Part shown: one piece after another, positions 35,395-49,642 of the stretch
Layout of the letters: every line of letters starts with the position of its first letter
Position numbering within the stretch: position 1 is the first letter of the stretch
Assembly: GCA_039680175.1 (NCBI GenBank)
Contig: JBDKTO010000116.1
Location: 1 to 55,682, forward strand
From: Veillonellales bacterium
GTDB taxonomy: Bacteria; Bacillota; Negativicutes; JAAYSF01
Direction: 5' to 3'
Length of the DNA: 55,682 nucleotides
The notes under the pieces: model-generated
Database searches by the model: none
Seen by the model: only the letters and a program-made list of their open reading frames with translations
Told to the model about the DNA's origin: nothing
Position numbers and translations under genes: made by a program

Positions 35395-35469
35395 GGGGTA
35401 TTAGCTCAGTGGGAGAGCGCTTGATTCACATTCAAGAGGTCACTGGTTCGAAACCAGTATGCCCCACCA
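35395..35469 (+). tRNA. tRNA-Val (anticodon CAC)
   Basis: A full cloverleaf: acceptor GGGGTAT with ATGCCCC (one T-G pair), D arm GCTC-AGTGGGA-GAGC, anticodon arm CTTGA-TTCACAT-TCAAG with anticodon CAC, T arm ACTGG-TTCGAAA-CCAGT, and an encoded CCA end. The anticodon reads GUG. The accessory island begins directly after it. Confidence 0.93.
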
Positions 35470-35474
35470 TAGGA

Positions 35475-35517
35475 AATAAGAGGCTTGGACGGTATTCCGT
35501 CCAGGCTTATTTTTTTG
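35475..35517 (+). terminator. Terminator of tRNA-Val
   Basis: AATAAGAGGCTTGGACGG pairs with CCGTCCAGGCTTATT around TATT, followed by TTTTTT. Confidence 0.88.
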
Positions 35518-35947: not shown

Positions 35948-37984
35948 ATGCAAAATTACAATCAAACAGCCGAATTTTTATGGAAGATTGCCGATTTGAT
36001 CCGCGATTACTACGAGGAAACCGCTTATGAGGATGTTATATTGCCGTTCACGTTGTTGCGACGCTTGGATTGCGTGCTCGAGACTAGGCATGAGCAGGTA
36101 ACGGCGGAATATGAAAAGTTTAAGACCGCCCCGCCAGAAACGTTGAAAAGGCTGCTCTGTAGAGCCGCTGGGCAGAATTTTTATAATACGTCGGAATTCA
36201 CCCTTACCAAGTTGACGAAAGCGCCTGCTGATATCGGTGAGAACTTCGGCAAATATCTGGATGGATTCAGCGACAATATCAAGGATATCCTCTACAATTT
36301 TTCAGGGGGTGAGGAAAAGGGGCTGTCTCCTCTCTATGAGACCTTGTTGCGAAAAAATCTACTGTTGGTGGTTACGCAGGCATTCACCGAGGCTGATCTC
36401 AGTCCGGAGGCGGTGGACAACCATGCTGTCGGTACTATTTTTGAATATCTCATTCGCAAATTCAAGGAGGCGCGCAACGCCGCCGCCGGGCAGCACTACA
36501 CCCCTAGGGACGTAATTCGACTGATGGTCAGTGTGATGTTTGCGCCGGATATTGAGCACCTAAAGCAAGCCGGTCGGCTGGTATCGCTGTATGATCCCGC
36601 TTGTGGCACGGGCGGTATGTTGACGGAAGGCAAAGAATACTTGCTGAAACATGTGAAAAGTGACTTGGAAGTCTATTTATATGGACAGGAAATACAAGAA
36701 AAGACCTATGCCATGTGCAAGGCGGATACGCTGATGAAAGGGGAACAGGCGGACAATATCAAACAAGGCAATACTTTGTCGGAAGATCAGCTGAAAGGGA
36801 AGACATTTAACTATATGCTGTCAAATCCCCCCTTCGGCGAGGACTGGAAGAACATCAGCAGCTACATCGAAGCTCAGGCTGAACTCGGCTACGCGGGACG
36901 ATTTGGCGCTGGGCTGCCGGGTATTGATGACGGATCGCTGCTGTTTTTGCAGCATATGATTTCTAAGATGGATGAGACGGGCTCGAAAATCGCCATCGTA
37001 TTTAATGGCTCACCACTGTTTAATGGCGACGCTGGCAGCGGCCCTAGTAATATCCGGAAATGGATTATTGAAAATGATTGGCTAGATGCTATTATCGCCA
37101 TGCCGGGGGATTTGTTTTATAACACCAATATTGCTACTTATATTTGGCTGCTGGATAACCGCAAGCCACCGGATCGGGCGAAAAAAGTCCAGATGATCAA
37201 CGCCAGTACGCCTGAGTATTATCAAAAACTAAAATCCAGTTTGGGCAAAAAAATGGTTGAAATGGGCGGCGAGCAAATCGAGGCTATAACCAAGCTTTAC
37301 CTGGCCAATCAACCGGGCGAGAGCTGTCGCATTTTTGAGGGTATTGATTTTGGTTATACAAAGGTAACGGTAGAGCGACCGCTCCGGCTGTCTTACACCG
37401 TAACTCCCGCCAAGCTGGATATCTTATCTGAACAGAAGAATTTTATAAAACTGGCCTTGTCGAATAATAAAGACCAGAAGAAGAAACGGGCGGCGATTGA
37501 GGCCGGGCAGGCGAAACAAAAGCAATTGCAGGCGGCGCTGCTGGCGATAGGGGAACAGGGTACAATCAAAGATGATGGGGATTTTTTCGCCCGGCTGGAG
37601 AAACGGGTTGATTTTAAACTGTCGAAAGCGATGCTCAAGGAACTGCGCGACACCTTCGGCGAGAAAGACGAGACGGCGGCGATGGTTTATACCGACTATC
37701 AGCTCGAGCCAGACCCGGAGCTAAGGGATGCTGAATATATCCCGTTGAAAGAAAACATTGAAGAATATTTCGCGCGGGAGGTTAAGCCACACGTTCCTGA
37801 TGCCTGGATGGACAGGGATAAAGATAAAATCGGCTATGAAATCAATTTTACCCGTTATTTTTACCAATATCAGCCCCTGCGTTCTATCGACGTTATCACT
37901 GCCGACCTTTTAGCAGTGGAAACGGAGACGGATGGACTGCTGAGCCTGATTGTCAACCTGACCGGCCAGGAGGCGGGGCAATGA
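35948..37984 (+). CDS. hsdM: Type I restriction-modification methyltransferase subunit
   Basis: A 678-residue N6-adenine methyltransferase subunit. The N-terminal helical domain (1-150) is followed by the SAM motif DPACGTGGM near 216 and catalytic NPPFGEDW at 294-301. It is longer than classic HsdM (about 500-530) because of a C-terminal extension (about 500-678) rich in charged helices. ATG 35948 has AAGGAGC upstream. It overlaps hsdS by 4 bp. With HsdS it methylates the recognised DNA and with HsdR forms the nuclease. Confidence 0.95.
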   Translation: MQNYNQTAEFLWKIADLIRDYYEETAYEDVILPFTLLRRLDCVLETRHEQVTAEYEKFKTAPPETLKRLLCRAAGQNFYNTSEFTLTKLTKAPADIGENFGKYLDGFSDNIKDILYNFSGGEEKGLSPLYETLLRKNLLLVVTQAFTEADLSPEAVDNHAVGTIFEYLIRKFKEARNAAAGQHYTPRDVIRLMVSVMFAPDIEHLKQAGRLVSLYDPACGTGGMLTEGKEYLLKHVKSDLEVYLYGQEIQEKTYAMCKADTLMKGEQADNIKQGNTLSEDQLKGKTFNYMLSNPPFGEDWKNISSYIEAQAELGYAGRFGAGLPGIDDGSLLFLQHMISKMDETGSKIAIVFNGSPLFNGDAGSGPSNIRKWIIENDWLDAIIAMPGDLFYNTNIATYIWLLDNRKPPDRAKKVQMINASTPEYYQKLKSSLGKKMVEMGGEQIEAITKLYLANQPGESCRIFEGIDFGYTKVTVERPLRLSYTVTPAKLDILSEQKNFIKLALSNNKDQKKKRAAIEAGQAKQKQLQAALLAIGEQGTIKDDGDFFARLEKRVDFKLSKAMLKELRDTFGEKDETAAMVYTDYQLEPDPELRDAEYIPLKENIEEYFAREVKPHVPDAWMDRDKDKIGYEINFTRYFYQYQPLRSIDVITADLLAVETETDGLLSLIVNLTGQEAGQ

Positions 37985-39315
37985 AACGCTATCCGCGCTA
38001 TAAAACGTCAGGGGTGGAGTGGATCGGGGATATACCAGAGGAGTGGGAAGTTAGAAAAATATCCCGCTCATTTGATGTTATTGGGAGCGGTACGACGCCG
38101 AAATCAGATGATTTAAGTTATTATGACTCTGGAAATATTTATTGGGTTAACACTGGAGATCTAAATGATGGCACTTTGGATGATTGTGAGAAAAAAATAA
38201 CCGAGAAGGCTTTCAAATTACATTCAGCTTTAAAAATATACCCGAAAGGAACGCTACTAATTGCCATGTATGGCGCTACTATTGGAAAAGTTTCGTTGCT
38301 GAATATTGAAGCAGCTACTAACCAAGCTTGCTGCGCATTATTCAAGAGTAAGTATTTTTTGCAAAAATTTATTTATTATTGGTTCCTAGCTAATAAAACG
38401 CATATCATTAACTTGAGTTATGGTGGGGGACAGCCTAATATCAGTCAGGATATTATTAGGCAATTACGGGTGCAAACACCTTCGCTGACTGAACAGGCTA
38501 CTATCGCTGATTTCCTTGACCATCAAGCCGCCCTTATCGATAAATTTATCACCGGTAAGCGAAAACAAATTGACCTATTGAAGGAACTGCGAACGGCTGT
38601 TATTAATAAGGCTGTCACTAAAGGACTAGATCCGTATGCAAAGATGAAACCGTCAGGCGTAGAGTGGATTGGGGATATACCAGAGGAGTGGGAAGTTAGA
38701 AAAATATCCCGCTCATTTGATGTTATTGGGAGCGGTACGACGCCGAAATCAGATGATTTAAGTTATTATGACTCTGGAAATATTAATTGGGTTAACACTG
38801 GAGATCTAAATGATGGCACTTTGGATGATTGTGAGAAAAAAATAACCGAGAAGGCTTTCAAATTGCATTCAGCTTTAAAAATATACCCGAAGGGAACGCT
38901 ACTAATTGCCATGTATGGCGCTACTATTGGAAAAGTTTCGTTGCTGAATATTGAAGCAGCTACTAACCAAGCTTGTTGCGCATTATTCAAGAGTAAATAT
39001 TTTTTGCAAAAATTTATTTATTATTGGTTCCTAGCTAATAAAACGCATATCATTAACTTGAGTTTTGGTGGGGGACAGCCTAATATCAGTCAGGATATTA
39101 TTAGGCAATTACGGGTACAAACGCCTTCGCTGACGGAGCAAACCGCCATCGTCAAGTGTCTTGACCAACAAAACACCCAAATTGACTCTATCATCTCCCG
39201 TATCATCTCCCAAATCACCCTCATGCAAGAATACCGGACATCACTCATCACCGCAGCCGTGACCGGAAAAATCGACGTGCGCGGCTGGAAAGGAGCGACA
39301 AGCCATGAGTCATAA
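37981..39315 (+). CDS. hsdS: Type I specificity subunit with two nearly identical recognition halves
   Basis: A 444-residue HsdS. It should have two different target-recognition domains, but here residues 16-170 and 231-385 are almost the same: both start EWIGDIPEEWEVRKISRSF and end near LRVQTPSLTEQ, with only two amino-acid changes that I see (Tyr to Asn in the NIYWVN segment, Tyr to Phe in NLSYGGG). The DNA copies are offset by exactly 645 nt. Conserved spacer helices (LLKELRTAVINKAVTKGL and LMQEYRTSLITAAVTGKI) follow each half. Because the two halves are arranged as a pseudo-dimer, equal halves predict a palindromic split target. It overlaps hsdM by 4 bp and hsdR by 11 bp. Confidence 0.95.
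   Translation: MKRYPRYKTSGVEWIGDIPEEWEVRKISRSFDVIGSGTTPKSDDLSYYDSGNIYWVNTGDLNDGTLDDCEKKITEKAFKLHSALKIYPKGTLLIAMYGATIGKVSLLNIEAATNQACCALFKSKYFLQKFIYYWFLANKTHIINLSYGGGQPNISQDIIRQLRVQTPSLTEQATIADFLDHQAALIDKFITGKRKQIDLLKELRTAVINKAVTKGLDPYAKMKPSGVEWIGDIPEEWEVRKISRSFDVIGSGTTPKSDDLSYYDSGNINWVNTGDLNDGTLDDCEKKITEKAFKLHSALKIYPKGTLLIAMYGATIGKVSLLNIEAATNQACCALFKSKYFLQKFIYYWFLANKTHIINLSFGGGQPNISQDIIRQLRVQTPSLTEQTAIVKCLDQQNTQIDSIISRIISQITLMQEYRTSLITAAVTGKIDVRGWKGATSHES
38026..38490 (+). repeat. hsdS internal direct repeat, copy 1
   Basis: About 465 bp, nearly identical to 38671-39135. By eye only about eight to ten base differences occur, most of them silent. Confidence 0.95.
38671..39135 (+). repeat. hsdS internal direct repeat, copy 2
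   Basis: Second copy of the target-recognition domain, 645 bp after copy 1. Such a long near-identical repeat can recombine and delete or expand. Confidence 0.95.
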
Positions 39316-42256
39316 AGACCAGCTCAGTGAACAGGTACTGGAAAGCACGATTGCGGACTTTTTGACAGATAGTCCGCTCTACAGCGTGCGTTCGTCGGCT
39401 GATTTCAGCTTGGACGAGCTGTTAGATGTTGGGGCATTGATCGATTTTGTCAGGGAGACTCAGCCGAAAGAGTGGAAGAAATACGCTCGGGAGTTTCCCC
39501 AGAATACGGAGTTGGTGTTTGCCCAGTTGACGGCAGAGATGATCAACGCACGAGGAACGCTGGAGGTCCTGCGGAAAGGGTTTGGTACTCACGGCGCTAC
39601 GTTCAAGCTGGTCTACTTTAAGCCTGCTTCGGGGGATAATGCCGATCACCTGGAAAAATACGAGAAAAACCGGTTTGCGGTTGTCCGCCAATTCCACTAC
39701 TCGAAAAAGACCCCAGATAAGTCGTTGGATATGGTGATTTTGCTCAATGGGATACCGCTCTTGACCATGGAGCTTAAAAATCACTTCACGGGCCAGAATG
39801 TCAGGCATGCTATTACCCAATATATTAAGACTCGAGATCCCAGGGAGCCTTTTCTCAAGGCATGTCTGGTGCATTTTGCCGTGGATGACGATGCCGTCTT
39901 TATGACGACAGGTCTGGCCAACGGTAATACCAAGTTTTTGCCGTTCAACCGGGATATCAAGAATCCGGTGATTGAGGGCAAATTTGCTTCGTCGTATCTG
40001 TGGGAGGAAATCTTGCAGGCCGACTCGCTGCTTAACATCTTGCAGAGTTATCTCCACTGGGTCAAAGACGAAAAGACCGGCAAGGAGCGCCTGATTTTTC
40101 CGCGGTATCACCAGTTGGATGCTGTTAGGGCACTGCTTGCCGACGCCAGGGCGCACGGTCCAGGCAAAAACTATCTTATCCAGCACAGCGCCGGGTCGGG
40201 CAAGTCCAATTCCATCGCCTGGCTGGCACACCAACTGGCCAATCTGTTCAACGACCAGAATGAGCCGGTGTTTGATTCGGTCATTGTCATTACCGACCGT
40301 CGGATCCTGGATAAGCAGCTGCAGGACACAATCGAGCAGTTTCAGCAGATTAAAGGGGTTGTCACCAAGATTGACAAAAATACCAAGCAGCTGATTAAGG
40401 CGCTAGTGCGCGGCGATAAGATTATTATTTCTACTCTGCAGAAGTTTGGCTTTATCGAGGAACTAGACAGCCTGCCGGGCAAGAAATTTGCCATCATTGT
40501 GGACGAGGCCCACAGTTCACAAACCGGCGAGAATGTGAAGGATCTGAAACTGGCGTTAACTACAGAAGCACAGTTGACTGCTGTGATTGAACAGGATGAG
40601 GAAAATCGAGAAGACAGTGATCCGGTGGAGGAAGAGCTGACGCGGATCATCGTCGCGCGCCAGAAGTTGCCGCATCTATCCTTTTTTGCCTTTACCGCTA
40701 CGCCCAAGCCAAAGACGATGGAGCTTTTCGGCATACCGGACGCCGGGAGTAAGACTGGATATAGAGCTTTTCATTACTACACCATGAGGCAAGCGATTGC
40801 CGAGGGCTTTATCCTGGATGTGCTGAAAAACTATGTGACCTATAAAACTTATTTTGAGCTGATTGAGAATGAAAAGGCCGACGATCAAAAAGAATTTGAG
40901 AAGCTGAAGGCCAAACGGTTGCTGGTCGGGTATGTGGACAGCCATGAACACGCCATTCGGAAAAAGGCGCATATCATGTTGAATCATTTCATGGAAAAGA
41001 CCATTCATAAAATTAATGGTACAGCCAAGGCGATGGTGGTCACCCGGTCCCGGGCTCATGCTGTGTTATATAAACTGGCTTTCGACCAGATAATTAAAGA
41101 AGAGGGCTACCCAATCGGTTGTTTGGTGGCCTTCTCAGGGACGGTAGAAATCGGCGGCACCAAGTATACCGAAGAAAGCATGAACGGGCCTAAGGCGAAG
41201 GATATTTCCGAAACATTCAAGGGTGCCGATTACAGGGCGCTGATTGTCGCCAACAAGTTTCAGACTGGTTTTGACCAGCCACTGTTACATACTATGTACG
41301 TAGACAAAAAGCTGGGTGGCGTGAGCACGGTGCAGACACTGAGTCGCTTAAACCGTACCGGGCCGCCAAGCAAGCAGGATACCATGATTTTAGATTTTGT
41401 GAATACGCAGGAAGAAGTTCAGAGGGATTTTCAGGATTATTATCAGGCAACCGATCTCGACAAGGGTACTAATCCCACCAAGCTTTATAATATGAAGTAC
41501 GAGTTGGAAAAGATGGGGGTTTACACTCCTGAGGATGTCGCCCAATTTATTGAGCTGTTTGTCGGCAAGAAACTCAAGTCGGAAAAACTGCAACCTTTGT
41601 TTCAAAAGATTGTGGATGAACGGTATGTGAGGCTTTCTCGGGAGGATAAGGGTACTTTTCGAAAAGAGTTGAGTAGTTATGTCCGACAGTATGCCTTTGT
41701 TAGTCAAATCGTTACGTTCATTGATGTGGAATTGGAGAAACTGTACCTGTTCGCCAAACTATTGTTGAAACAATTACCCTATGAAGCCGAAACTTTGCCA
41801 AGGGTAGTCGCTGAAATGGTAGATATGGATAAATACCGGGTGCAGGAAGAGGAGAACGGCAGTATCCTGCTGAGCCCGGAGGACGCGACGTTAGAGAATA
41901 CAAGCAATGACGGTCACAAAGGGCGCAAGGAAGATGAGAAAGAGCTTCTACAGATCATTGTCACAGAATTAAATGAGAAGTTCCAGATCGAGTTTGACGA
42001 GGGCGACCGGGTGGTCAATGCCATGAAAGATAAACTGATTATCAATGATAGTCTGAAAGCCAGCTTCGCCGCCGATAATATCGAGGACTTGAAGCGGATG
42101 AAGCTGGAGGAGTGCATTCAAGAAGCATTGTTGGAAAACGCGGAAGAACATTTAGGATTTATGGCCAAGCTGGAGACGGACAAAGCATTTGGAAAGTTTT
42201 TCTTTTCGGAAATGTTTAAGTGGTATAAGTCGATGAGTGCGGAGGCGGGAAAGTAG
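39305..42256 (+). CDS. hsdR: Type I restriction endonuclease subunit R
   Basis: A 983-residue motor-nuclease. The N-terminal PD-(D/E)xK nuclease has the Asp in LDMVILLNG and E-x-K in LTMELKN (about 142-160). The SF2 translocase has Walker A SAGSGKSN near 297, DEAH at 400-403 and the TAT motif FFAFTATPKP near 455, with helicase domain 2 motifs FQTGFDQP and QTLSRLNR. The C-terminal region binds HsdM. Complete; cuts unmodified DNA far from the site after ATP-driven translocation. Confidence 0.95.
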   Translation: MSHKDQLSEQVLESTIADFLTDSPLYSVRSSADFSLDELLDVGALIDFVRETQPKEWKKYAREFPQNTELVFAQLTAEMINARGTLEVLRKGFGTHGATFKLVYFKPASGDNADHLEKYEKNRFAVVRQFHYSKKTPDKSLDMVILLNGIPLLTMELKNHFTGQNVRHAITQYIKTRDPREPFLKACLVHFAVDDDAVFMTTGLANGNTKFLPFNRDIKNPVIEGKFASSYLWEEILQADSLLNILQSYLHWVKDEKTGKERLIFPRYHQLDAVRALLADARAHGPGKNYLIQHSAGSGKSNSIAWLAHQLANLFNDQNEPVFDSVIVITDRRILDKQLQDTIEQFQQIKGVVTKIDKNTKQLIKALVRGDKIIISTLQKFGFIEELDSLPGKKFAIIVDEAHSSQTGENVKDLKLALTTEAQLTAVIEQDEENREDSDPVEEELTRIIVARQKLPHLSFFAFTATPKPKTMELFGIPDAGSKTGYRAFHYYTMRQAIAEGFILDVLKNYVTYKTYFELIENEKADDQKEFEKLKAKRLLVGYVDSHEHAIRKKAHIMLNHFMEKTIHKINGTAKAMVVTRSRAHAVLYKLAFDQIIKEEGYPIGCLVAFSGTVEIGGTKYTEESMNGPKAKDISETFKGADYRALIVANKFQTGFDQPLLHTMYVDKKLGGVSTVQTLSRLNRTGPPSKQDTMILDFVNTQEEVQRDFQDYYQATDLDKGTNPTKLYNMKYELEKMGVYTPEDVAQFIELFVGKKLKSEKLQPLFQKIVDERYVRLSREDKGTFRKELSSYVRQYAFVSQIVTFIDVELEKLYLFAKLLLKQLPYEAETLPRVVAEMVDMDKYRVQEEENGSILLSPEDATLENTSNDGHKGRKEDEKELLQIIVTELNEKFQIEFDEGDRVVNAMKDKLIINDSLKASFAADNIEDLKRMKLEECIQEALLENAEEHLGFMAKLETDKAFGKFFFSEMFKWYKSMSAEAGK

Positions 42257-42395: not shown

Positions 42396-42572
42396 ATGGT
42401 AAGTGGTGTTAGAAATTTTATGGTAAGAAATCAGGCGCAGATTTTTCCGCCGCTGATCTCGCAAAGTAATTTTAACTACGTTGGCGAGCAGGGGATGCCA
42501 ATGATAAGGGGTGTGCCATGCAAATGGAAACGAGGCAAAAAACCCGGTTATTTGTATTGGTATTTTATGTAG
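42396..42572 (+). CDS. Possible 58-residue ORF or gene remnant before the HerA-like gene
   Basis: An open frame running from a stop near 42320 into the HerA-like gene; from ATG 42396 it encodes 58 residues including VRNFMVRNQAQIFPPLIS and a basic, aromatic end. It overlaps the next gene by 55 bp. There is no clear ribosome site, so it may be a decayed piece. The rest of the gap 42257-42395 shows no other feature. Confidence 0.25.
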   Translation: MVSGVRNFMVRNQAQIFPPLISQSNFNYVGEQGMPMIRGVPCKWKRGKKPGYLYWYFM

Positions 42573-44740
42573 GATTGCTACTAGGTGCAAATTTCTTAGC
42601 TTTTGGAGAAATACTTCCTCTGAATGGGAGTAAGGGTCTCTGGTTTTATTCGGGGTTGGCTAGTATTTTGCTTGGAAGTCTACTTGTTACACCATTTTAT
42701 TCAAAACCTGTGGACGCGCTTTCATATGCAGTTGTTGCTGGGATTGCATTGTACTCGGTGCATGACTGGGATAACTGGGCGATTTTCGAGCGGATGGCTT
42801 TCAGCGTGGCGATGCTTTTTTGTTTGCTGGTTTTGTTAATTTCTTTCACTGCAATTTTGACCAAAGATAGTATCAGTGTATCAGGTCAAAAGTGGTCCAA
42901 TACCTTTAGAATATTGGCTAATGTATTAGGGAACCAAAGCGTAGTGTTCAGCGTTGTGATGATTTTTGCGCTAATAGTCTTTCACAGATCGTCTGCCAAA
43001 GAAATGTTCGTCATAACTTTGGCATGGGTAGTCACGGTTATTATTCAGCCAGAAGAATACGTGGCCAAGCTTAGTAAGAGCATAAAGAAATTATGGACGC
43101 ATACGATATCTTTCGAGTCCGTTGGCGATGTCGTTGCATATCAATTGCCTGAGATAGTATTAATCAGGCAAAAAACAATTACAAAAATCCCCTTCGGTGC
43201 GCCTTTCATATTTAAGGACGATTGCAGCTTAGTCAGGATAGGAGTTGTCTTAGGTTACATTGGCCGAGATGAGGCTTTGCTAGTTAGGTCATTAATGATT
43301 GATGTGTCTGCAGAAGTAGTCAACCAGTATGACAATACTTTGGCTCTCGTTCCTATCAATACAGCTGTTTCAGCTACTGGCCTTCAAGAAATAATTGAGA
43401 ATTTGAATGTTCAGCCGTATAACATAGTTGGAATTGTTGCATCTGATACTAATATTGAATATTTGTATTTTGAGGTTATTCAAGAAAGAGAGCTAGAGGA
43501 AGGAAGATTGGTAGAAGTATTAATAAAAGAAGAACCCGTCATATACCAAGTCATTAATGGCATTACCAAAGAAGATGTTGTCTTTCAAAAAAACACATAT
43601 GGTTATGCGCGAGCGAAAGCTCAAAAGATTGGCCGATGGGATGAAGTCGGAAGAAAGTTTGTTCCAGTGAAATGGATACCCAGATTAAATTCTCCCGTCT
43701 ATTTGAAAGAAAAAGAACAGGTTAAACCCGATAAGAGTAGCATCGGATGTTTTCCGGGTACGAGCTATTTCGTCGGGATTAAAAGTATTGATCAACTCGT
43801 AACTCACAATACAGCCATCTTGGGCATACTCGGCATTGGAAAATCCATGCTATCAATAGAGCTAATTGAACGCATGATAGCAGAAAAGATTAAAGTAGTT
43901 TGCCTTGATATGACTAATCAATATGCGATAGAATTATCGGATTTTTACGATGCAGAGAATGAACCAGAAAACATTTGTAAGATTCAAGAAGCAGGCGACA
44001 AAGATAAAGATAGTTGGGCAGAAAACCCAGAAGATGGCGGTAGCTTATCTGGTTTTTCACAGGCAATTCTTGAAGACTTACACGCATTTATCGAGACGCC
44101 AGACCACTTCTTGAAGATTTATAATCCATCCCAACTATTCGCTTCAAAGCAGGTACATGAACCAAAAAGTTATCAAACGGGGGGACAATGGCAGCGAGGG
44201 GCTGCAGTATGGACTGTTACGCCGGTTGAAGTAACTCGCATAATAGCAGAAAAGCTCCTGGAAGTGGTTCAAGAAAAGGGAATGACAGATCAGGCAAGGG
44301 TTTGTCTCGTCTTAGAAGAGGCTCACTCGTTGGTTCCTGAATTTAACTCAGTTGCATCCGAGGGGGATAAGGTTGCCACCAGCGGAACATCACGAGTCAT
44401 TCTGCAAGGAAGAAAATATGGGCTGGGTTGTTTGTTGATAACTCAGAGAACTGCTAATGTAACAAAGACCATTTTGAATCAATGCAATTCTATTTTTGCA
44501 TTACGTACCTTTGATGATACCGGCAAGAATTTCTTGTCTAATTTCATCGGCAGTGAGTATGCAAACATCATCCATACATTGCAAGAGCGCCAAGCCGTTT
44601 TTTTCGGGAAAGCGTCATCGTGTGAGAATCCCGTATTGATTAGGCTTAATGATCAGCAAGATTTTAGAAGATGTTTTAGAGGAGAGCCTGAGTCTTGTGA
44701 ATCCTGTAATTGCGGGGATCGGCATGATTTGCTGGAATAA
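42518..44740 (+). CDS. Membrane-anchored HerA-like (DUF87-type) ATPase
   Basis: A 740-residue protein with six predicted membrane helices at the N-terminus (about 11-29, 41-61, 66-82, 91-114, 141-156, 162-178), a beta-rich middle region (200-400) and a HerA/FtsK-superfamily ATPase. Walker A is GILGIGKS (436-443), Walker B is VCLVLEEAH (595-603), then RVILQGRKYGLGCLLITQR with candidate arginine finger. The last 40 residues hold a Cys cluster (Cys702, Cys727, Cys730, Cys732). HerA proteins are hexameric DNA translocases, often with a nuclease partner; none is adjacent here. Gene order after hsdR suggests a defence role, but function is unknown. Base composition is more AT-rich than the core genes. 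Confidence 0.8.
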   Translation: MQMETRQKTRLFVLVFYVGLLLGANFLAFGEILPLNGSKGLWFYSGLASILLGSLLVTPFYSKPVDALSYAVVAGIALYSVHDWDNWAIFERMAFSVAMLFCLLVLLISFTAILTKDSISVSGQKWSNTFRILANVLGNQSVVFSVVMIFALIVFHRSSAKEMFVITLAWVVTVIIQPEEYVAKLSKSIKKLWTHTISFESVGDVVAYQLPEIVLIRQKTITKIPFGAPFIFKDDCSLVRIGVVLGYIGRDEALLVRSLMIDVSAEVVNQYDNTLALVPINTAVSATGLQEIIENLNVQPYNIVGIVASDTNIEYLYFEVIQERELEEGRLVEVLIKEEPVIYQVINGITKEDVVFQKNTYGYARAKAQKIGRWDEVGRKFVPVKWIPRLNSPVYLKEKEQVKPDKSSIGCFPGTSYFVGIKSIDQLVTHNTAILGILGIGKSMLSIELIERMIAEKIKVVCLDMTNQYAIELSDFYDAENEPENICKIQEAGDKDKDSWAENPEDGGSLSGFSQAILEDLHAFIETPDHFLKIYNPSQLFASKQVHEPKSYQTGGQWQRGAAVWTVTPVEVTRIIAEKLLEVVQEKGMTDQARVCLVLEEAHSLVPEFNSVASEGDKVATSGTSRVILQGRKYGLGCLLITQRTANVTKTILNQCNSIFALRTFDDTGKNFLSNFIGSEYANIIHTLQERQAVFFGKASSCENPVLIRLNDQQDFRRCFRGEPESCESCNCGDRHDLLE

Positions 44741-45263: not shown

Positions 45264-45605
45264 GTGAGGTTGTTGTATATTAAATATAGCGATAAAAAAC
45301 TTGAAAAGCTCTTAAATAACGACAAGCTCCTCATCCGCAGCTTCGGTGCCTCTAATGCGCGTAAAATCGTTTTACGGATGAACCAAATCAAAGCCGCGTC
45401 ATCTTTAGGCGCTATGCTGACCCAGCGTGTGGGACGCTGCCACCCTTTGACCGGGGATCGGCAGGGACAGTTTGCTTTTGATGTGGAGCAGCCGTACCGT
45501 CTTATTGTCATACCGGCGTATGATAACAAGGCGGCCGAGCAAGTCAATGATTTATCGCAAGTCAAGACAATCAGGATCATGGAGGTGACGGATTACCATG
45601 GCTAA
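45264..45605 (+). CDS. higB: HigB-like toxin (RelE superfamily killer protein)
   Basis: A small basic protein of 110-113 residues. The N-terminal KYSDKKLEKLLNNDK and the central GxRCHPLTGDRQGQFAFDVEQPYRL match plasmid-maintenance killer (HigB) toxins, ribosome-associated mRNA cutters. GTG 45264 or TTG 45273 may be the start; AAAGGGTGAGG precedes both. It overlaps the antitoxin gene by 8 bp, in the toxin-first order typical of HigBA. Confidence 0.8.
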   Translation: MRLLYIKYSDKKLEKLLNNDKLLIRSFGASNARKIVLRMNQIKAASSLGAMLTQRVGRCHPLTGDRQGQFAFDVEQPYRLIVIPAYDNKAAEQVNDLSQVKTIRIMEVTDYHG

Positions 45606-46674
45606 CAACAAAGAGTACCAAGCTTGCCTGGCGGTCCCTCCTGGGGAAACGCTGGCCGAAGTTTTGGAAGACCGCGGTATGCCGCAAAATGAACTGGCCC
45701 TGAGAACCGGCGTTACATCGAAACACATCAATGAAATCATTCAAGGCAAAGCGGCCATTAGTCCGACGATGGCCCTCCGGCTGGAGCAGGTATTGGGCGT
45801 GGAAGCCTCGTTTTGGAACAACTTAGAGGCGGACTATCAAGCGACAGTAGCCCGTCTGGCTCTGCAGGAAAGTATGGCCGAAGAAATCGAAGTAGCTTCA
45901 AAATATAATTATGCAGACTTGGCTAAAGCCGGTTATGTGCCCAGGACAAGAGTAGCTAAAGAAAGGGTTTATCACCTGCAGCGGTTTTTTGGGGTATCTT
46001 CCCTAAAGTATGTGCGCAATCTCATTTGCGCTGCTTTTCGCAAGGGCGATACCGCCACACAAACAGCCTCACCCTATGCACTGGCGGCCTGGATTCGTAA
46101 ATGTGAACTTTCCGCCCATGAAATCAGTACCGCTGAATTTAGCCGGGATAAAATTCTGGCCTGGCTGCCGGAATTGCGCAAAATGACTAAACTGGAACCA
46201 GCTGAGTTTTTGCCCCTTCTATCGCAGGCCTTCGCCGACTGCGGCATTGCCTTGGTCATTGAAACTCACTTGCCGAAGACCTATGCAAACGGCGTAAGTA
46301 AATGGCTGAGTCCCAAAAAGGCCATGCTTGCCCTGAGTTTGCGCGGCGCCTATGCGGATATTTTTTGGTTTACCTTGTTCCACGAAATCGGGCATCTTGT
46401 CATGGGGCATAGTAAAAAAGAGACGTTTATTAATTTTTTGAAACAGGACCCGAAGGATACCCAGGAGCAGGAGGCCAATCGCTTTGCTGCCGACCGGCTC
46501 ATACCGCCGGCGGAATACAAAAAGCTTATGAGTATAAGCCCAACGATCTATCAAATAACGGCGTTTGCCGAACAGCTGGGGATTGATCAGGGAATTGTTG
46601 CCGGCCGTTTGTGCAATGATAATGTCTATCAATGGCGTCAACTCAGCAGCCTGAGGAAAAAGTACGCAGCGTAA
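45598..46674 (+). CDS. higA: HigA-type antitoxin fused to an ImmA/IrrE metallopeptidase domain
   Basis: A 358-residue fusion. Residues about 15-75 form an XRE/HigA helix-turn-helix (PGETLAEVLEDRGMPQNELA, then HINEIIQGKAAIS); residues about 190-340 carry an ImmA/IrrE zinc peptidase domain with HEIGH at 262-266. Such fusions exist as antitoxins of HigB or as stand-alone regulators. The HTH should repress the operon and the peptidase part may allow stress-triggered release. ATG 45598 has GGAGGTGA nearby. Confidence 0.85.
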   Translation: MANNKEYQACLAVPPGETLAEVLEDRGMPQNELALRTGVTSKHINEIIQGKAAISPTMALRLEQVLGVEASFWNNLEADYQATVARLALQESMAEEIEVASKYNYADLAKAGYVPRTRVAKERVYHLQRFFGVSSLKYVRNLICAAFRKGDTATQTASPYALAAWIRKCELSAHEISTAEFSRDKILAWLPELRKMTKLEPAEFLPLLSQAFADCGIALVIETHLPKTYANGVSKWLSPKKAMLALSLRGAYADIFWFTLFHEIGHLVMGHSKKETFINFLKQDPKDTQEQEANRFAADRLIPPAEYKKLMSISPTIYQITAFAEQLGIDQGIVAGRLCNDNVYQWRQLSSLRKKYAA

Positions 46675-47604: not shown

Positions 47605-47723
47605 CCTATGGTACTTTTTGAATTTGTTTCTGGCTCACTATTATGGTAATTATTACAAGGAATATAGCATACCATGGCGAAGTGAGTAAAAATATGGAAT
47701 TAAATTTAAGGGGGCGGGTGCAG

Positions 47724-47951
47724 GTGAGACTAAGGGAAATTATTTTAAAGAACTTCCGTTCGTACGAAAAAGAAACAAAAATTGATATTGACGACTTGAC
47801 GGCATTTACCGGGAAAAATGATATCGGAAAGTCGACTGTTTTAGAGGCGTTAGAAGTTTTTTTTAATGGGTCAATCGTAAAGCTGGATCGTGTGTATTGC
47901 TTCCATTGCATTTGCCGGATCGATGGACGATTTACTATTAAAGGGAATTAG
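47724..47951 (+). pseudogene. N-terminal fragment of an OLD/RecF-like ATPase
   Basis: The frame from GTG 47724 starts LREIILKNFRSYEKET and reaches the P-loop FTGKNDIGKSTVLEALEVFFNG, which is the N-terminus of an OLD-family or related AAA ATPase normally several hundred residues long. Similarity ends near 47888, and the frame stops at 47951 within the start of the ankyrin gene. Only about 55 meaningful residues remain, so it is a remnant of a probable defence gene. Confidence 0.7.
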
Positions 47952-48438
47952 GGATAACAATATGGAATTGATTAAAACGGCTCTTTCTAATGGTGCGGAT
48001 GTAAATTTTGAAGGCCGAACCGAAACCCCTTTACTTGTTGCGATTGATAAAGAGAATATTTCCATCGTAGATTTCTTATTAAAAAATGGAGCTGACCCCA
48101 ATAAAAGTCTTGATATATTATCGATTCAGAAGGAAGTACCGATTATAAAGGCTACCCGGAAAGCAAGTTATAAGAAAACTAGTGATAAGTTGGTTCAGCT
48201 TTTAGTTGATGCTGGAGCGGATATAAACTCAGTTAATCATAGCGGGGTTTCACCACTAATGACGGCAGTCTCGAATCCGCCTAATATTGCTATGGTTCAG
48301 TATTTATTATCAAGAGGGGCTGATGTAAGTCAAGCAAATAGTGAAGGTAATACACCTTTGATGATTACAGCTCGATTTGAAAACGGTTGGGGATCTAATG
48401 GTTTTAGACAACAAAAAATTGCGCCGTACCCACTTTGA
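47890..48438 (+). pseudogene. Ankyrin-repeat protein, truncated at both ends
   Basis: The frame begins inside what looks like the end of a signal peptide (CIASIAFAG), followed by at least four ankyrin repeats (ALSNGADVNFEGRTETPLL; FLLKNGADPN; LLVDAGADINSVNHSGVSPL; YLLSRGADVSQANSEGNTPLM). The 5' end joins the ATPase fragment at about 47888; the 3' end runs into the IS element at 48420. The continuing half is not found after the element. Confidence 0.75.
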
Positions 48439-48491
48439 TGGACAGTTAAAACCCGTAGTATACTGGAAATCAGAGAGGGGAATAAAAAACT

Positions 48492-48782
48492 ATGGCAAAG
48501 CAGTACGATTCAGAGTTTAAAATGGAGGCAATCCGCCGACTTGAAAGAAATGGTGAGTCAGTAGCTAAAGTTGCAGCTGATTTAGGCGTCAACGAGAATA
48601 CGATGCACGGATGGGTCAAACGATATCGAGAAAAATCAGCGAATCCTTTTCCGGGCAGTGGAAAGTTAAGTGATGAGGATGAGAAGATCCGCAAGCTTGA
48701 GCGAGAAAATCGAAATCTGCGGGAGGAAAATGAGATATTAAAAAAAGCGGCGGCGTACTTCGCCAAAAACCAAAAGCTGTAA
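48492..48782 (+). CDS. IS3-family transposase OrfA
   Basis: A 96-residue helix-turn-helix protein (FKMEAIRRLERNGESVAKVA, then NTMHGWVKRYREK) followed by a leucine-zipper-like coiled coil (LERENRNLREENEILKKAA). It binds the IS ends. The A-rich run TTAAAAAAAGC at 48739-48749 near its end is a suitable site for the -1 frameshift that makes the OrfAB transposase. Confidence 0.92.
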   Translation: MAKQYDSEFKMEAIRRLERNGESVAKVAADLGVNENTMHGWVKRYREKSANPFPGSGKLSDEDEKIRKLERENRNLREENEILKKAAAYFAKNQKL

Positions 48783-48838
48783 GGTTTAAGTTTATCAGCG
48801 CCAACCGCCACAAATATCGGGTAGCGAAGCTGTGCCAG

Positions 48839-49642
48839 GTGCTCTGGGTATCGAGAAGTGCCTATTATGCATGGGAAAAACGCCCGAAAAGTGCAAGGAA
48901 ACTAGAAAATGAAAAATTAGCGAAACAGATCAAAAGAATTCATTACAAGAAAAATCGCACCTATGGCTGCCGCAAGATGACCCAAGAATTACACCGTACC
49001 GGCAAAATAGTTAACCATAAACGGGTTGAGCGGATTATGAAAGAAGAAGGGATTCGCTCTAAAGTTGCCAAAAAGTTCAAAGCCACGACGAATTCCAAGC
49101 ACAACCTGCCAGTGGCAGAAAACCTGCTAAATCGTGATTTTAAGGCAACGAAGCCTAATCAAAAAATGGTGAGCGATATTACCTACTTATGGACAGATGA
49201 AGGTTGGCTGTATGTTGCTGGCGTCATGGATCTCTGCGGCCAAAAAATTGTAGGACTATCAATGAGCGAAAGAATGACAAAACGACTTGTTATAAATGCC
49301 CTGAATAGTGCCTATCTGCGCAGTGGCCGGCCTAGCGGCGTGTTGCTCCACTCGGATCGGGGGAGCCAATACTGCTCCAATGAATACCAAAAACTGTTGA
49401 AGCAATATGGATTTATTTGTAGCATGTCTCGAAAAGGGAATTGCTGGGACAACGCTCCTATGGAAGCTTTCTGGCAGAAGATGAAATACGAGTGGTTAAA
49501 TGAACAGCATTTTAAGACACGTGACGAGGCCCGAGCCGCAGTGTTTGAGTATATTGAAATCTTCTACAATCGGCAACGATTGCATGAGTCAAATAACTAT
49601 CTCACTCCGGAAGAATATTATTCCGCTGCCTTAGTGGCTTGA
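48839..49642 (+). CDS. IS3-family transposase OrfB (DDE integrase domain)
   Basis: At least 267 residues; the frame is open from 48734 and is most likely entered by -1 frameshift from orfA, so GTG 48839 is only the first start codon found. An HTH_21 region (KKNRTYGCRKMTQELHR) is followed by an rve catalytic core: first Asp in VSDITYLW, second Asp in LLHSDRGSQY, and Glu in PMEAFWQKMKYE. All three catalytic residues are present, so the element may be active. Confidence 0.92.
   Translation: MLWVSRSAYYAWEKRPKSARKLENEKLAKQIKRIHYKKNRTYGCRKMTQELHRTGKIVNHKRVERIMKEEGIRSKVAKKFKATTNSKHNLPVAENLLNRDFKATKPNQKMVSDITYLWTDEGWLYVAGVMDLCGQKIVGLSMSERMTKRLVINALNSAYLRSGRPSGVLLHSDRGSQYCSNEYQKLLKQYGFICSMSRKGNCWDNAPMEAFWQKMKYEWLNEQHFKTRDEARAAVFEYIEIFYNRQRLHESNNYLTPEEYYSAALVA

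Follow-up and report, generated by a model that had tools for sequence, protein, structure and literature searches.

How does a type I specificity subunit come to carry nearly the same target recognition domain (TRD) twice, and what would such a protein recognise? The two TRDs of HsdS usually differ and give an asymmetric bipartite site, although this is the usual rather than a strictly defining state in type I systems, NgoAV being an accepted exception. The hsdS gene at 37981–39315 of the window (the whole 55,682-nucleotide stretch of Veillonellales DNA analysed here) departs from the usual state, given that the two TRDs it encodes differ at only 2 of 148 residues.

A predicted type I restriction-modification operon

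The genes hsdM, hsdS and hsdR follow one another in that order, uninterrupted, on the forward strand. All three frames are open and their starts overlap, with hsdS sharing 4 bp with hsdM and 11 bp with hsdR. The first gene, hsdM (35948–37984), encodes an N6-adenine methyltransferase subunit of 678 aa with N6_Mtase and HsdM_N domains (Pfam), a match to MTase_I (PADLOC, E 8e-250), motif I as DPACGTGG at residue 216 and NPPF at residue 293. The 444-aa product of hsdS matches Specificity_I (PADLOC, E 9.5e-153) and contains two PF01420 stretches (Pfam). The third gene, hsdR (39305–42256), encodes a type I restriction/translocase subunit of 983 aa with HSDR_N, ResIII and SWI2_SNF2 domains (Pfam), Walker A at residue 296, DEAH at 400 and ELK at 156; TIGR00348 is also matched, with a score under the family cut-off. 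The three genes of a type I system are present with their catalytic motifs, and HsdS has a pair of TRDs along with two long helices in its conserved regions. The view of the initial annotation that hsdS has stayed in frame is borne out: the gene is open, and its partner genes are intact. Judged by its sequence, the locus has the canonical make-up of a type I restriction-modification operon with its three genes, and ATP-dependent restriction and m6A methylation are predicted for it.

A tRNA-Val gene (35395–35469) lies directly upstream of the operon and is followed by a strong terminator-like hairpin (35481–35508). We rejected this tRNA as an island attachment site, since its 3' end does not recur downstream. 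Directly downstream of hsdR, at 42518–44740, is a gene for an ATPase of the HerA/DUF87 type that has a hydrophobic region at its N terminus. A relative, 26% identical, is encoded elsewhere in the genome, on a different contig (1676–3790), where its gene comes directly after a second one of M-S type. Few genomes of the class encode such a protein (3 of 300), and in one other genome the ORF neighbouring such a gene is, by eye, unlike an hsd gene. Further along, at 45264–46674, a 113 aa ORF with no Pfam match overlaps a gene for a protein with a HigA-type HTH and an IrrE-like peptidase, which scores above the TIGR02607 cut-off and matches PD-Lambda-2_B (PADLOC, E 4.5e-43); from these matches the segment is possibly a toxin-antitoxin or defence module beside the operon. 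The interval 47643–49642 holds an IS3-like transposase (orfA, 48492–48782; orfB, 48839–49642, with an rve domain), an adjoining ankyrin-repeat ORF (47890–48438) and a short ORF (47643–47951) that is similar in sequence to the beginning of an AAA-type ATPase and is possibly a truncated gene.

The copied segment is the recognition cassette alone

The initial annotation described two nearly identical halves of hsdS, at 38026–38490 and 38671–39135, offset by 645 bp and with about two amino acid changes between them. The repeat and its offset are confirmed, and the offset, being 215 codons, preserves the reading frame of hsdS. The end at 38490 was set slightly too far, however, since differences become frequent from 38472 on, within a segment encoding PSLTEQ. 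The TRD1 cassette is 38026–38471 and the TRD2 cassette 38671–39116 (both on the forward strand), and the two are 98.7% identical. Exact comparison finds 6 of 446 bases different, four of them silent, as had been said of most of the differences, and two non-synonymous, giving the residue pairs Y54/N269 and Y147/F362. Alignment of the halves yields a pN/pS of about 0.13, and the binomial probability of at least four silent differences among six is 0.02 under no selection; taken together, these values weakly suggest that both TRD copies are under constraint.

Both cassettes are bounded by conserved segments. The upstream flank of TRD1, encoding SGVEWI (38002–38025), has 20 of its 24 bases in common with the conserved upstream flank of TRD2 (38647–38670), and past the four differences in this segment 114 bases are identical between the TRDs. 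Judging from the sequence, 38002–38025 is the likely upstream recombination substrate. Differences number 6 of 446 bases in the core versus 11 of 52 in the flanks (38002–38025 and 38472–38499; Fisher P = 4e-8). The conserved region CR1 (38472–38640) comprises the downstream flank of TRD1, with PSLTEQ, and a long helix (residues 169–213), and CR2 (39117–39285) comprises the downstream flank of TRD2 and a long helix (residues 384–427), both again on the forward strand. These regions have only 92 of 169 bases in common, with similarity that peaks beside the TRD. Such sharp edges of identity, with CR1 and CR2 still different, indicate that the recognition cassette alone was copied, and the contrast between the conserved regions and the TRDs rules out a half-gene duplication. 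On the same alignment, the apparent exchange points are the conserved segments bounding both TRD slots. The earlier proposal of a recent in-frame duplication or gene conversion thus holds as to recent copying, but is narrowed to the TRD cassette without its helical spacers, and to a known process, domain movement.

The cassette has a G+C content of 36.8% in both slots, whereas hsdM and hsdR have 48% and the spacers 44–51%. The TRDs of homologous plasmid operons show a similar dip, so low G+C alone is no proof of recent import.

Domain movement as the probable origin of the repeat

Domain movement (DoMo) was described in H. pylori, where TRD sequences swap between the TRD1 and TRD2 slots at flanking repeats (Furuta et al. 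2011, PMC3077401), and is also found in Moraxella catarrhalis (PMC6241649). The H. pylori S gene HPV225_1544 has TRD e in both slots (PMC3077401). It thus carries the same TRD twice, as here, but is of type IIG, whereas the present gene is a type I hsdS of full length whose partners hsdM and hsdR are intact. Two features of DoMo are found at this locus. The same TRD sequence occurs in the TRD1 and TRD2 slots within this gene (as it does, for a homologous TRD, between alleles of related operons), and direct repeats bound both slots (20 of 24 bases upstream, PSLTEQ downstream), with the edges of identity inside them. We therefore consider it probable that the TRD came to occupy both slots by DoMo, leaving a full-length, near-symmetric S subunit that probably reads an interrupted palindrome. 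The exchange would have occurred at the conserved sequences on either side of the two slots, by homologous recombination or by gene conversion. It may have taken place inside the gene itself, or else between two alleles that had this TRD in opposite slots. If the alleles were X-Y and Z-X, a single crossover in CR1 would be enough to yield X-X, and gene conversion inside one gene would do likewise.

Exchange between alleles is seen in homologous type I operons of enterobacterial plasmids, whose HsdM and HsdR are 38% and 35% identical to those here and which carry a TRD 48–49% identical to that of this hsdS. In the K. pneumoniae operon (NZ_CP080352) that TRD fills slot 1, whereas the operons of Citrobacter (NZ_LR822057) and E. 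coli (NZ_CP147131) have it in slot 2: positions 31–575 of the K. pneumoniae gene match positions 679–1223 of the Citrobacter gene at 99.4%, with 98.9% for the E. coli gene. The exchanged block is 545 bp long at an offset of 648, with direct repeats of 39–58 bp at both edges, longer and stronger than the flanking repeats of our locus. The plasmid operons resemble the present one in having homologous HsdM, HsdS and HsdR and a TRD of the same family that switches slots, but each allele has that TRD once, beside a different TRD, whereas here it occurs twice. In E. coli KFu015 the plasmid-operon TRD is present both on the chromosome and on a plasmid.

No donor allele carrying this TRD (>60% identity) was found among the relatives searched. 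The closest TRDs are 48% identical within the class and 56% identical in a Moraxella plasmid, where the TRD is in slot 2, and phage and viral collections gave none closer than the Moraxella match. A local donor is rejected, since a search of the genome found no second hsdS copy or silent cassette, and two further genomes from the family, compared for alternative alleles, are both without this TRD.

Predicted recognition of an interrupted palindrome

The TRDs of HsdS sit in inverted orientation, so that equal TRDs are expected to read equal, inverted half-sites, and the spacer of a type I site is usually N5–8. The AlphaFold model of this HsdS, which has a mean pLDDT of 67 from a 6-sequence alignment and low values around residues 29–82 and 251–297, contains two confident long helices, 169–213 (45 residues) and 384–427 (44 residues), exactly one repeat apart. 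The model matches the HsdS structures 5ybb, 1yf2, 3okg, 7bst and 2y7c with Z of 14.7–20.4 (5ybb, Z 20.4; 7bst, Z 15.5; 1yf2, E 2.6e-20). The S chain would fold antiparallel, with its pseudo-twofold symmetry now nearly truly twofold and one HsdM on each side. The enzyme would then bind and adenine-methylate a half-site, N(5–8) and the inverted half-site, and unmethylated DNA would be restricted with HsdR. The enzyme lacks strict symmetry, since the sequences of CR1 and CR2 differ. By analogy with known enzymes, it probably recognises an interrupted palindrome, though Y54/N269 could break the symmetry.

The initial annotation argued from structure that two equal halves should read a palindromic split site, a logic upheld in experiments by enzymes with truncated S subunits, EcoR124I-delta50 (GAAN7TTC) and EcoDXXI-deltaC (TCAN8TGA), and by natural NgoAV, with its palindromic site GCAN8TGC (PMC3874165); for the present enzyme the site is a prediction. 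The half-S enzymes of CC398 likewise methylate a palindrome (PMC6158711). All four have two copies of one TRD per enzyme, as here, but they assemble them from two truncated one-TRD S molecules, whereas here one chain, a single uninterrupted ORF of 444 aa, holds both TRDs. Closer in architecture are the engineered, active hybrids EcoRD2 and EcoRD3 (GAA N6/N7 RTTC; PMC3874165 Table 2), in which a full-length S has near-equal half-sites of the kind predicted here, although these are laboratory hybrids that combine two distinct TRDs whose specificities converge, with no copied TRD. EcoRD2 being full-length (GAAN6RTTC), nearly equal half-sites are evidently tolerated in one chain (PMC3874165). Prediction of the half-site itself from related TRDs was abandoned, since TRD2 of EcoR124II, the closest one for which both structure and site are known, is too distant.

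Alternative explanations

The two residue differences bear directly on this prediction. The TRDs may be near-identical by descent while Y54/N269 (and Y147/F362) have already altered one half-site or its stringency, leaving a site that is nearly but no longer exactly palindromic (compare groups a and d of the TRDs of H. pylori). H. pylori TRDs of the same homology group with few residue differences had different half-sites (PMC3983042), and the column of residue 54 has Y in 2 of ∼245 aligned TRDs, with P and N common, such that the slot-1 residue looks derived. We nevertheless regard such a change as unlikely, given that the differences are confined to two core residues, that the Y/F change is conservative and that the pN/pS value suggests constraint; residue 54, moreover, is placed by no DNA-bound structure.

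A second explanation is that the enzyme is inactive, the duplication existing without a functional methyltransferase and present only through its youth. With a divergence of 1.3% the duplication is indeed recent, yet the open frames with overlapping starts, the catalytic motifs and the mostly silent differences make inactivity rather improbable, as does the activity of homodimeric S proteins with equal TRDs (PMC3874165).

The repeat might also owe something to the assembly, a draft genome of 121 contigs with an estimated contamination of 4.3%. The longest exact run common to both cassettes is 114 bp, with differences scattered along the block, and a search of the assembly turned up neither a further copy of this hsdS nor an alternative allele, so collapse or expansion of a repeat is unlikely. 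In a chimera, reads of two strains with the TRD in opposite slots would have been joined, and no single genome would carry the TRD twice. Homologous systems do have such opposite-slot alleles, but mixed strains should leave leftover alleles, of which the search found none; with a longest exact run of 114 bp and the spread of differences through the block, this makes a chimera very improbable. Least credible of all is that a phase-variable shuffling locus was caught in a transient state: slot-to-slot TRD exchange is typical of such loci, but the extra hsdS genes or silent TRDs with nearby recombination sites that characterise them were not found. The genome search gave neither a further copy of this TRD nor a silent hsdS cassette, the interval 35200–55682 has no other repeat, and the operon neighbours examined include no recombinase.

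Rarity and implications

HsdS halves had been said normally to differ, and comparison with other HsdS proteins agrees. Our sample, drawn from the same class, the same phylum and database matches, comprises 148 proteins, each with a TRD match in both halves. Identity between the halves has a median of 27% and a second highest value of 49%, against 84% for this HsdS, in which the compared segments take in part of the spacers. None of the 147 others exceeds 50%, giving an upper 95% bound of ∼2%, a rough figure given the bias of the sample to the organism's own phylum and to strong matches. Our literature searches gave no natural type I hsdS of full length in which one TRD fills both slots, a weak indication, with REBASE and many subscription papers outside the scope of the search. 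The parts and the process are already known; it is their combination that is uncommon.

A 2014 review had the natural class with palindromic sites represented only by the truncated NgoAV (PMC3874165). We put at about even the chance that the present operon is a natural full-length type I system whose single-chain, pseudo-homodimeric S reads a true interrupted palindrome and has been kept by selection. Domain movement, these results suggest, can make the specificity of a full-length type I enzyme symmetric, and truncation is not the sole way to it. The locus would provide a natural test of HsdS halves as interchangeable, inverted reading modules, with one self-complementary methylome motif expected. 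Furthermore, with TRDs that differ at two residues and helices that differ widely, it could separate the roles of TRD and helix in the choice of half-site and in spacing.
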